Positions 33,093 through 36,953 of a stretch of 36,953 nt of DNA are shown here, in pieces; within the stretch, counting starts at the first letter, position 1; each line of letters opens with the position of its first letter. This DNA is from a virus. The DNA lies in IMG/VR virus record IMGVR_UViG_3300035070_002538, positions 1-36,953 of that record. One strand, 5' to 3'. Below the pieces are notes generated by a model. The model worked only from the letters and a program-made list of their open reading frames with translations, was not told the DNA's origin and searched no databases. The position numbers and the translations under genes were made by a program.

Positions 33093-33317
33093 ATGCTTAA
33101 ATCTGGAGCTGTACTAATTCACCCAATCCGCGGAGAGTTTACCGTTGTAGGCACTCAGGATTGCAGTGATGAATTTATCGATAACGAATGGCGATCTGGC
33201 TATATGGTCATTGCTGACTTCGATAAGTTCATTGAAAATATACGATGGAAAAACGAGACTGGAAACTCTAGGCTCATCTTTCACTCTTACTATCTTAAAA
33301 ATGTAGAGGTTAAATAA
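33093..33317 (+). CDS. Hypothetical small protein between fibre adaptor and tailspike (74 aa)
   Basis: A small alpha/beta protein with one cysteine (TQDCSDEFID) and aromatic strands (SGYMVIADFDKF, RLIFHSYYLKN). AGGA lies six bases before its ATG and its stop abuts the tailspike start. It may be a tail chaperone or a minor tail protein; no family is recognised. Confidence 0.6.
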   Translation: MLKSGAVLIHPIRGEFTVVGTQDCSDEFIDNEWRSGYMVIADFDKFIENIRWKNETGNSRLIFHSYYLKNVEVK

Positions 33318-36094
33318 TGTCTATTAATCCGGTTACTCAATATCCTGGCAAAGTTGCACCCGCAACTCCAGACAATCCATTCGGTACAGCCAGGAATATT
33401 ACAATTCCAGGTGACGGCACCGGTACACCTTGGGAATCTGCACTCCTAAAAGATGAGTGGGCGCTTCAACATGCCATGCTACTCAATGCGGGTATGGAGC
33501 CAAATGGAACTCCAGACTCCGCGGAGAACTCGCAACTATTCAAGGCGGCTAAAGCCTCGATCGGCAATGGCGCGAACCTGCTATCCAATCATAACTTTTT
33601 GACCCCCTCACCATATACAACAGGACCAGGAGCTACGCAACCACCACCAGACGCGACCCCTCGAAGCTACCCGCCGGGCTTTCAAATATTCTCTGGTGTG
33701 TTTGTTAATGAAACCACGGGTATTACAGACTTAACCTATATCAACGGTCGCCCTAACTGGTCTGCTGGTGATTTTTACATGTCCGTGCCAAATACCGGTG
33801 CAATAGAACGAGTAAATGATTTTGTTGCCTCTGTTGCAGACTTTGACGGCAAGCCTCGCACTCGTGGTGTGTCTTATGCTTTGGTGGGTGACGAATATCG
33901 CGTGACGGTTGGTGTTGATGCGCTTGAAGATGCTAGCGCCGTGTTAACTCCGCTCGGTTCTGTGAAGCTTGAGCAGGGTGGTGTGGCTACGGGGCATGAG
34001 GTTGGTGAAGAAATAACTACCACCACACTATCGAGTTATGCAGACGTAACCTACAAAGCTTCAGGTACTAATTCTGCGGTTGAGAATATGCTATCTGGAA
34101 TACCGTTAAGATCATCTATTGGCGACTACTGTAACGCTGCCGGCACATTATTTAGACACAACTCAGGTGACGGGACGGATTTATCACATTACACTGTCGT
34201 GGGTGATATTTTTGCTGATAGTTTCGGCGCAACACCAGACTTTTCAGAGTCAAATGTTACCGATTCATGGCAAGCACTGACAGATGCACTTGAGTACGCC
34301 CAATCGAAACTCATAGCAACAGTACGCATAGAGGGTGATTACGGATTAAGCAAGCCGCTAGTAATCCCTGCATCGGTGTGGCTGGTTGGTGGTAATGTTA
34401 ATACCACGTCACTAACAAAATACACAAATACAACATCTGGATTACCGCCGGTTAATGGTTATGGTGGCGAGTTGATCATGGATGTTGATGCAGCCGTGAT
34501 TATTGGTACTGGATATCAATCCGGACTACATAGAATGAAGGTTCAATGTTGGGCGCCTACCTCTGTTGAATATGGGATTTACCATGGCATTACAAGAGAA
34601 TGTTCAATAGAGCTGGTTCGAGTAGGTAAGCCAGATCTTGCAGATGGTGGTAAAAGGCTATTTCTTAACGGTGTTACAGCCGAGCAGGGATTCTTCCACT
34701 CTTACAAAGAAATTTCAATGTACTGCAAACTAAGGGGTTGGAATTACCGATTTAGCGAAAACTCATTAGGGTGCAACACTGTTACATGTAATAGGTCTTA
34801 TGTTGTTTACACGTCAGATAAAGCCGCGCTATTTGAAGGTACAACGGGCTTTAACCTTGGAAATATATATGTAGAGGAATCAACAGGCGGAATTCTCCGA
34901 GTAAATGGAGCTGCCGCATGTAATATAGATGTTCTGTGCCTAGATAGGCACACCCTAGACAACTCATCCGTTGGTATCTACATAAGAAACTCTCAAGTTA
35001 ATATCGGCAACTTGAGCCCTAATGTATTGGATATTGCCACCGGAGAGTCTGCCACCTTTATTGAGTTATCAAACTCCGGAGGTATATATACAGATTTATA
35101 CCTAGGTGGAACGACGGCTAAAACAGCATCAAGAAACCTACCAGGCGTAACAACTCTAGTTAAAGGTGGTGATTCCGAGGTATTCTTTAGAGGTGCACCT
35201 CTACCTCCAATCGGTGAGTTTGGTAATATTGGCGGGTATCAAACTGACACATGGTCAGCTCTTGAGGACACGGGTAATATATCAACATTCCACCAACGCT
35301 CTGTTAGCGTATCTCAAGAGTCAGAAGCCAGAGGAATTAGGTCAAATGTTGATTGTTCACTAAAGAGTATTGCAGACCTAGTAAACACAAAGGTTACAGC
35401 ATCAACATTCGTTAAGCCCGGACAGAATTATGAACATTGTGGTGGTTTTGCTGGTTCTTCTGGTCCAATAAGCAATGCGTCATCGGCTAATAGAAAATGG
35501 TCATTAGACTCATTAAACGGAAACATCTACGGAACAGGAACGGTTGCAGGTGGTCATACTTTCTCAGACTTTGCTGAATACTTTGAGAATGCAGATCAAG
35601 GTGTAATTCCATTAGGTACATTAGTTGATCTAAACGGCGAAAAGATTGCGCCCGCAAACGGAGATGAGTTTATAGGCGTTGTGTCTGGTACGGCAGGGTT
35701 TATTTTGAATGAAGCTCGTATAAGCTGGTCGGGCCGCTATCTTGTCGGTGAATATGGTGAGCCAATCTGGGAGGGCATTGAGGATAGCGAGGGAAATACC
35801 GTAACAGTAAGAAAGGAAAACCCTGACTATTCGCCAGAAAGAGAGCGTCTTGGGTTTGATGATGAAGGAAATGAAATTCTTGGCGAGGTCATTTATTCAT
35901 CTCGCTCAGAGAGACCTGAAGAGTGGTCGTGCGTTGGTCTGACTGGTCAGGTTTATGTTTCAGTTGATGAGTCTGTATGCGTGGGCGATTACTTGACAGC
36001 AGCTAACGGGGTTGGATTTAAGTCTGAAGTAAAAACTCAATGTCGAGTTATGAAAAAGACATCCAAATCCATCGCAAAGTGCTTAATTAAGTAA
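33317..36094 (+). CDS. Tailspike with C-terminal peptidase G2-type autoprocessing domain
   Basis: The 925-residue protein has an N-terminal attachment part (1-120, with a proline-rich NPVTQYPGKVAPATPDNP), a central beta-helix-like part (about 300-600, many short glycine/asparagine strands, containing IRVEGDYGLSKP-like repeats and GIYHGITREC), and a C-terminal domain (about 745-925) beginning TFSDFAEYFE and containing IPLGTLVDLNGEK and IGVVSGTAGF. That C-terminus fits the peptidase G2 intramolecular chaperone, which folds the trimer and then cuts itself off. The central part may bind or cleave a surface polysaccharide. Confidence 0.8.
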   Translation: MSINPVTQYPGKVAPATPDNPFGTARNITIPGDGTGTPWESALLKDEWALQHAMLLNAGMEPNGTPDSAENSQLFKAAKASIGNGANLLSNHNFLTPSPYTTGPGATQPPPDATPRSYPPGFQIFSGVFVNETTGITDLTYINGRPNWSAGDFYMSVPNTGAIERVNDFVASVADFDGKPRTRGVSYALVGDEYRVTVGVDALEDASAVLTPLGSVKLEQGGVATGHEVGEEITTTTLSSYADVTYKASGTNSAVENMLSGIPLRSSIGDYCNAAGTLFRHNSGDGTDLSHYTVVGDIFADSFGATPDFSESNVTDSWQALTDALEYAQSKLIATVRIEGDYGLSKPLVIPASVWLVGGNVNTTSLTKYTNTTSGLPPVNGYGGELIMDVDAAVIIGTGYQSGLHRMKVQCWAPTSVEYGIYHGITRECSIELVRVGKPDLADGGKRLFLNGVTAEQGFFHSYKEISMYCKLRGWNYRFSENSLGCNTVTCNRSYVVYTSDKAALFEGTTGFNLGNIYVEESTGGILRVNGAAACNIDVLCLDRHTLDNSSVGIYIRNSQVNIGNLSPNVLDIATGESATFIELSNSGGIYTDLYLGGTTAKTASRNLPGVTTLVKGGDSEVFFRGAPLPPIGEFGNIGGYQTDTWSALEDTGNISTFHQRSVSVSQESEARGIRSNVDCSLKSIADLVNTKVTASTFVKPGQNYEHCGGFAGSSGPISNASSANRKWSLDSLNGNIYGTGTVAGGHTFSDFAEYFENADQGVIPLGTLVDLNGEKIAPANGDEFIGVVSGTAGFILNEARISWSGRYLVGEYGEPIWEGIEDSEGNTVTVRKENPDYSPERERLGFDDEGNEILGEVIYSSRSERPEEWSCVGLTGQVYVSVDESVCVGDYLTAANGVGFKSEVKTQCRVMKKTSKSIAKCLIK

Positions 36095-36105
36095 CAACTC
36101 AAGTG

Positions 36106-36738
36106 TTAATTTTGTTCGGATACATAACCAATCCAATGCTTAACTAAATTCAAACTAACCCAAACAGACGGCGATTCGAAAGTTTCGCCGTCAAACTCCA
36201 CCTCTTGGGGTAAGTATCCAACTGTAATCCCAACCAGCTCACCTTGCTCATTCCACACGCCACCACCTGACATTCCGCCTTTAACACCTCCAGTGCTCAT
36301 GGACATCTGACAATTAGGATAATCACTTGATACTACATCGCCAACATATAACCCTTGAGATGTCGCGTAACCTTCGTTAACTGGATATCCCGAATGAATT
36401 ACAGTTTGATTTAGATAAACCAAACCAACACTTGCAGACTTAACAGGGTCGCGATACATAGCTATATCGCAATCAGGATGATAGAAGACATCAAGCCCTG
36501 ATATATACCCTTTAATGGCCAATATTGGCCAGTTGTGCTTATTTGTTAAAACCCACTCATCGTTTAATCTAACGCTACTTCCTTCCATAGATAAAAGCAT
36601 TGGAATTCCTACGAATATCTTTGATGTAGATTCATAAACATGCGGGTTGTTACCATGCCATTCATGGCTTACATCAATCATTGGTAAGTTAGAGCACCCA
36701 GCAATAGCAGTGCTAAGTAAAACGATAAGCGGTTTCAT
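36106..36738 (-). CDS. Trypsin-like serine protease lipoprotein
   Basis: A 210-residue protein with a lipoprotein signal (hydrophobic start, lipobox IAGC with C15). The chymotrypsin-fold triad is visible: H68 in LTNKHNWP, D91 in HPDCDIAMYR and S157 in GGMSGGGVWN, with the oxyanion-type glycines around it. Cysteines C90 and C143 may pair. AAGGA lies seven bases before the ATG. It faces the tailspike gene tail to tail with 11 bases between. A secreted, membrane-anchored protease is unusual for a phage; roles in superinfection exclusion, envelope remodelling or virion processing are possible but not shown. Confidence 0.85.
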   Translation of the reverse strand: MKPLIVLLSTAIAGCSNLPMIDVSHEWHGNNPHVYESTSKIFVGIPMLLSMEGSSVRLNDEWVLTNKHNWPILAIKGYISGLDVFYHPDCDIAMYRDPVKSASVGLVYLNQTVIHSGYPVNEGYATSQGLYVGDVVSSDYPNCQMSMSTGGVKGGMSGGGVWNEQGELVGITVGYLPQEVEFDGETFESPSVWVSLNLVKHWIGYVSEQN

Positions 36739-36748
36739 TTTTAAATCC

Positions 36749-36910
36749 TTATTTAATTTCTATAGGAACACCAACAACACCATTAAACAATACACGGCTC
36801 TCAATCACTGAGTATCCGTAGTATGCGTATGTCTATTTGCAACCAACTATGCCTACTGCTATGATTAGACTTATCTCGGTTGCCTGTCGCGTTTGTTTTA
36901 TCTTTTTCAT
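36749..36910 (-). pseudogene. Small lipoprotein gene with in-frame amber codon (25 + 27 codons)
   Basis: From ATG 36910 (AGGA about eight bases upstream, in the terminal repeat) the frame encodes a basic N-terminus, a hydrophobic segment and a lipobox IVGC at residues 21-24. It hits TAG at 36833-36835 after the 25th codon, then stays open for 27 more codons (TYAYYGYSVIESRV and onward) to TAA 36749-36751. A change of CAG to TAG would explain the interruption. Restored, it would be a small outer-membrane lipoprotein of about 30 mature residues, the size class of Cor/Llp-type exclusion proteins. It lies just ahead of the protease gene. Confidence 0.5.
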
Positions 36911-36953
36911 TGTTACATCCTGTTGTTAATTTGATAGTAGTTTGGAAGCCCCT
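36906..36953. repeat. Right copy of 48-bp terminal direct repeat
   Basis: Identical to bases 1-48. It contains the ribosome binding site and start of the leftward small lipoprotein frame and the left arm of the terminator-like hairpin. Confidence 0.9.

Follow-up and report, generated by a model that had tools for sequence, protein, structure and literature searches.

Near the end of the window, by which we mean the entire analysed stretch of 36,953 nucleotides of viral DNA, the minus strand encodes a trypsin-like serine protease whose predicted lipid anchor and catalytic residues recur almost without exception in a protein family shared by phages and Vibrionaceae chromosomes. The host envelope is the most likely target of the protease, since the enzyme is predicted to be exported and lipid-anchored and occurs in phages whose lysis and tail genes are unrelated. 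As a tentative reading, plausible though short of probable, we propose an outer-membrane-anchored enzyme which cuts host envelope proteins, most likely for superinfection exclusion.

Sequence features and conservation of the protease

The reading frame starts with ATG, is preceded by a ribosome-binding site of the AAGGA type and its product begins with MKPLIVLLSTAIAGC. In first-order shuffles of the region 36106-36738 an open reading frame of at least 200 amino acids appeared in 0 of 4000 cases. Together with the profile matches and the presence of homologs in 34 phage records this shows that the frame is real and not a product of chance. The Pfam profile Trypsin_2 is matched with 3.6e-6, which exceeds its curated cut-off, while the PHROG_9683 profile “protease” is matched with 1e-33 over residues 11-206 of 210. 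As in bacterial lipoproteins, an N-terminal signal peptide with a lipobox, IAGC15, is present. The initial annotation had read from the letters a lipobox at C15 and an H68-D91-S157 triad with a GMSGGG serine motif, all of which are found at these very positions (Table 1). Two further cysteines, C90 and C143, are probably paired in a disulfide bond.

Table 1. Coordinates of the protease gene, its predicted functional residues and neighbouring features in the window, and of YfiM-type genes in other loci
Feature	Position	Strand	Remarks
Predicted lipid-anchored trypsin-like serine protease, 210 aa	36106-36738	minus	PHROG_9683, Trypsin_2
Lipoprotein signal peptide and lipobox IAG-C15, +2 residue Ser	36694-36738	minus	Cys in 44/44 homologs with this region
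Predicted catalytic H68 codon (TNKHN)	36535-36537	minus	44/45 homologs
Predicted catalytic D91 codon (HPxCDIA; HPDCDIA here)	36466-36468	minus	45/45 homologs; aligns with Deg2 CDIAL motif
Predicted catalytic S157 codon (GMSGGG)	36268-36270	minus	45/45 homologs
Invariant C90, putative disulfide with C143	36469-36471	minus	45/45 homologs
Invariant C143, putative disulfide with C90	36310-36312	minus	45/45 homologs
48-nt terminal repeat, identical to 1-48	36906-36953		Record circular or terminally redundant
Holin-like membrane protein (phrog_1544)	74-601	minus	Putative function, from position
Endolysin (Peptidase_M15_3)	595-936	minus	Profile matches
Tailspike/tail fibre with C-terminal self-cleaving Peptidase_G2	33317-36094	plus	Convergent with protease gene
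N-terminal lipoprotein remnant, 25 codons	36836-36910	minus	Followed by TAG (36833-36835); first 147 nt of slot match relatives
C-terminal lipoprotein remnant, 27 codons and TAA	36749-36832	minus	In frame after TAG; TYAYYGYSVIESRVLFNGVVGVPIEIK matches lipoprotein ends
YfiM-type gene after protease, L008	4685-5020		
YfiM-type gene after protease, L009	4584-4919		
YfiM-type gene after protease, L014	4664-5017		
YfiM-type gene after protease, L017	4543-4881		
YfiM-type gene after protease, L018	4630-4953		
YfiM-type gene after protease, L032	581-919		

The conservation counts stem from an alignment of 45 homologs comprising phage and host proteins, in which the lipobox cysteine was scored in the 44 sequences covering that region. 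Cys15 is present in each of these, and D91, S157, C90 and C143 in all 45. Loss of the triad across close relatives, which would have spoken against the proposed protease, is not seen: H68 is kept in 44 homologs, D91 and S157 in every one, so that triad and lipobox persist in nearly the whole family. Among the 16 phage proteases aligned, lipobox Cys, D91, S157, C90 and C143 are all invariant, and H68 is replaced, by Tyr, only in that of henriette 12B8 (L015 3989-4648). As this Tyr takes the place of the catalytic His, the henriette copy may be inactive or altered. The protease is under purifying selection, as dN/dS amounts to about 0.10-0.13 in the three intact close pairs for which it could be computed (two further pairs are saturated). 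By the sorting rule of E. coli, lipoproteins lacking Asp at position +2 after the lipobox cysteine are directed to the outer membrane. None of the 42 homologs scored at this position has Asp there, so that all of them are predicted to be outer-membrane proteins.

Predicted fold

AlphaFold2 was run on 17 sequences taken from the window and from fetched loci. The model of the protease (mean pLDDT 86.5, pTM 0.84) confidently predicts a single domain with the chymotrypsin fold of clan PA, a double beta-barrel. A Foldseek search of this model against the PDB gave 657 matches at E ≤ 0.001, the best of which are protease domains of the Deg/HtrA and V8/Esp types (Deg2, DegQ, DegS, DegP and V8/Esp; E about 1e-9 to 1e-8, probability 1.00). 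The search for the closest protease clan, suggested along with the original proposal, accordingly leads to clan PA, and the chymotrypsin fold expected there is present in the model. In a sequence profile search of the PDB, D91 is aligned to the CDIAL motif of Deg2.

The HtrA/Deg proteases (DegS, DegP, DegQ; S1C) constitute the nearest solved folds (E about 1e-9, probability 1.00), with a weak resemblance in sequence over the active-site region, 12-20% identity and a TM-score to the query of 0.5-0.6. In contrast to them, the phage protease carries a predicted lipid anchor and has no PDZ domain: none was matched, and the protein ends at residue 210, directly past the protease domain, and is thus not an HtrA with PDZ. 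Against the curated HtrA/Deg equivalogs DegS reaches only 15 bits, compared to a cut-off of 408. The V8/Esp glutamyl endopeptidases (S1B) are single-domain clan PA enzymes as well (Foldseek E about 1e-8, TM-score up to 0.64, 19-20% identity), yet they are secreted Gram-positive enzymes without a lipobox. Spanin features were likewise looked for in the protease; the globular model shows no C-terminal transmembrane segment and no spanin profile is matched.

Distribution of the family in phages and hosts

Searching the proteins of 50,697 phage records turned up homologs in 34, of which 33 belong to Vibrio phages; they are about 30-42% identical, in 32 cases the match covers 80% or more of the length, and the genomes of the Vibrio phages differ greatly in size (44-349 kb). 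The nearest genome to the window by portal protein, 1.182.O, is absent from the protease-bearing records. No relatives emerged when viral contigs were scanned with the HNL01 protease. The PHROG_9683 proteases of Va1, VnaP, henriette 12B8 and helene 12B3 belong to the same family over the full length and have lipobox, triad and the two cysteines in common with the window protein, which we regard as a new member of this catalogued family. The literature searched contains no study of the family and no functional data for any member. Judged from sequence comparison, the near-universal lipid-anchor signal, the host chromosomal relatives and the frequent pairing with a YfiM-type gene (see below) appear undescribed in that literature.

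The initial annotation had taken such a protease to be rarely seen in lytic podoviruses; the family turns out to be widespread, since in addition to the 34 phage records 81 of 330 genomes of Vibrionaceae, the family of Vibrio atypicus, contain a match at E ≤ 1e-10. The chromosomal lipoprotein proteases (V. atypicus, V. sinaloensis, Photobacterium aquae) are up to 44% identical to the window protein and share lipobox, triad and the Cys pair, but are cellular genes, a second group of which has a C-terminal extension. V. atypicus and V. sinaloensis share the neighbours of the gene, which by inspection of translations are transporter-like and channel-like, and no phage genes were seen within 4 kb of the protease. 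In Grimontia and Enterovibrio the gene is situated, again by inspection, just before folD. The tree sets the Enterovibrio/Grimontia and the extended cellular groups apart from a phage-plus-Vibrio group, inside which the branching order, including that of the nearest relatives of the window protease, is not resolved. In some Vibrio genomes (G147, G218, G287, G295; L038 3980-4640 and L039 3980-4640) the cellular protease is broken into two reading frames around residue 91-103, for which a shared frameshift, a pseudogene or a programmed shift are alternatives. A contig labelled as Chloroflexi (L037 3977-4702) carries two neighbouring protease copies and may be a misbinned contig of a Vibrio phage or host.

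Gene order in the window and the decayed lipoprotein slot

As the two ends of the window share 48 nt, the minus-strand operon runs on over the window boundary into the holin-like and endolysin genes (74-936). The unit reads endolysin (595-936), holin-like gene (74-601), lipoprotein remnant (36749-36910), protease and then, on the plus strand, the tailspike. The initial annotation placed the protease on the lysis strand behind a small lipoprotein frame. The former holds, given the endolysin and holin-like genes across the joint, whereas the latter frame is, by sequence comparison, a deletion remnant of a lipoprotein of about 213 residues kept intact in relatives. The first 147 nt of this slot are 94-97% identical to MAG7, L023 and 1.087.A, an agreement which stops at the GCK codons; beyond these come a TAG and then only the 3'-terminal 27 codons of the resident lipoprotein gene, whose product TYAYYGYSVIESRVLFNGVVGVPIEIK aligns to the lipoprotein C-termini of 1.164.O, MAG7 and L023. 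Since the upstream frame is broken, the two-gene envelope module that had been suggested does not exist in the window.

The slot is occupied by an intact proline-rich lipoprotein of 202-223 residues in MAG7, 1.164.O and three IMG/VR contigs. In many Vibrio phages (L003 5376-6047; L005 5289-5930; L023 4594-5247) the gene of this resident lipoprotein of about 213 residues converges with that of the tailspike, and elsewhere it is broken. It is matched at least partly in 27 phage records, and C-terminal fragments of it adjoin tail genes in 1.191.O, 1.197.A and S4-7. In 1.087.A it is reduced to a stub of 39 residues with no protease in the slot. The slot decays and gets refilled. No useful match to the resident lipoprotein came from Pfam, PHROG or NCBIfam, and AlphaFold2 models it poorly (pLDDT 47).

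Genomic context in other phages

The position beside the tailspike, likewise part of the initial description, is found in this genome but not in most homologs, so that the adjacency is not conserved. In V6Aob and henriette the protease gene is flanked by genes for a gp46-like protein and a clamp loader, which argues for expression ahead of lysis, while in the phage of the window expression is possibly late as the gene comes after the lysis genes. In SRILMA it follows PhoH and one small gene, and in 1.170.O, 1.193.O, VnaP and helene it is transcribed divergently to neck or head-tail genes.

In 12 other phage records the gene next after the protease encodes a YfiM-type (DUF2279, lipocone) protein of about 110 residues, a partner and not a homolog of the protease, which matches the NCBIfam YfiM model with 2.3e-7 at a score under its cut-off. 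The partner protein carries a signal peptide. A YfiM-type gene is present in 14 of the 34 protease records as against 40 of 50,697 records overall, a contrast whose p-value carries no meaning because the records are related to one another. Without the protease, a YfiM-type gene occurs in about 26 small phages, almost all of them phages of V. breoganii, and in 1.193.O the gene is split into two overlapping reading frames (L016 4639-4970). Unlike its relatives in the 12 records, the window protease has no such partner (hmmsearch over all window frames) and is flanked by the lipoprotein relic and the tailspike. It has been argued that YfiM-DUF2279 lipocone proteins function in the outer membrane (PMC12419801).

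Discussion

In the mechanism we propose, the signal peptide would be cleaved before C15, whose side chain would become lipidated, and the protease would be sorted to the outer membrane because the +2 residue is Ser. Its single chymotrypsin-fold domain would point towards the periplasm or, if flipped, be exposed at the cell surface. The gene would represent an accessory gene related to the chromosomal lipoprotein proteases of Vibrionaceae, flanked by the tailspike gene on one side and by a decayed lipoprotein gene on the other. During infection the enzyme would cleave one or more host envelope proteins, and the likeliest benefit would consist in excluding superinfection by removing or altering surface components needed by incoming phages. 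T5 Llp is a superinfection-excluding phage lipoprotein encoded beside the receptor-binding gene (PMC9586334), and Rtp45 is a phage lipoprotein blocking its receptor from the periplasmic side (PMC12685063). Exclusion, which is also the most plausible of the roles suggested in the initial annotation, is our preferred reading because phage exclusion lipoproteins act on the receptor periplasmically and Llp adjoins the receptor-binding gene; the occupation of the slot by other lipoproteins in relatives also speaks in its favour. T5 Llp, T1 Cor and Rtp45 are likewise outer-membrane lipoproteins of phages (PMC9586334, PMC12685063), but small non-enzymatic binders, whereas the protease of 210 residues has a predicted catalytic clan PA domain, and no sequence relation between the two is shown. 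Against exclusion stand the lack of a conserved adjacency to a receptor-binding gene, the possibly late expression in this phage and the consideration that the receptor of a phage with a beta-helix-type tailspike may be a polysaccharide, which a protease could not cut.

A host-derived accessory enzyme of the envelope, engaged in its quality control, in stress signalling or against a host defence of the periplasm or outer membrane, with no role in exclusion, is a somewhat unlikely alternative. It would agree with the Deg/HtrA quality-control proteases as nearest folds, with the chromosomal location of related genes in Vibrionaceae and with the YfiM-type outer-membrane lipocone as partner, which suggests membrane remodelling (PMC12419801); the missing PDZ domain argues against it, as does PADLOC, in which nothing was matched but, weakly, the protease portion of RT-protease profiles. 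Rather improbable in our view is an aid to lysis, in which the protease would cut tethers between outer membrane and peptidoglycan (e.g. of the Lpp, Pal or OmpA type) and the outer membrane would give way once the endolysin has acted, the protease replacing a spanin or the lost resident lipoprotein. Consistent with this, the protease gene comes after those for the endolysin and the holin-like protein when the genome ends are joined, all three being on the minus strand; in relatives the lysis operon closes with a different lipoprotein gene in this slot, and no spanin was recognised among the minus-strand reading frames scanned in the lysis region. Most homologs, however, lie outside lysis cassettes, two of them amid replication genes, and the slot seems dispensable because in 1.087.A the lipoprotein is broken without a protease replacing it.

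Processing of the virion or tailspike, which the initial annotation had also considered and for which the neighbouring tailspike gene in this genome would speak, is very improbable and we reject it: the tailspike contains a self-cleaving Peptidase_G2 domain of its own, the export and lipidation signal of the protease is conserved whereas virions assemble in the cytoplasm, and most relatives are not encoded beside a tailspike.

Returning to exclusion, it is possible, if doubtful, that Vibrio phages of widely differing genome size share a lipid-anchored outer-membrane protease, often accompanied by a YfiM-type lipocone, which remodels the outer membrane of the infected cell by cutting surface proteins and thereby excludes competitors, as an enzymatic counterpart of Llp and Cor related to envelope proteases of the host. 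If the proposed role is true, enzymatic remodelling of the host outer membrane during infection would be common to phages of 37-349 kb and to their hosts, and the recurrent YfiM-type pairing would offer a handle on an outer-membrane family with a function so far only predicted.
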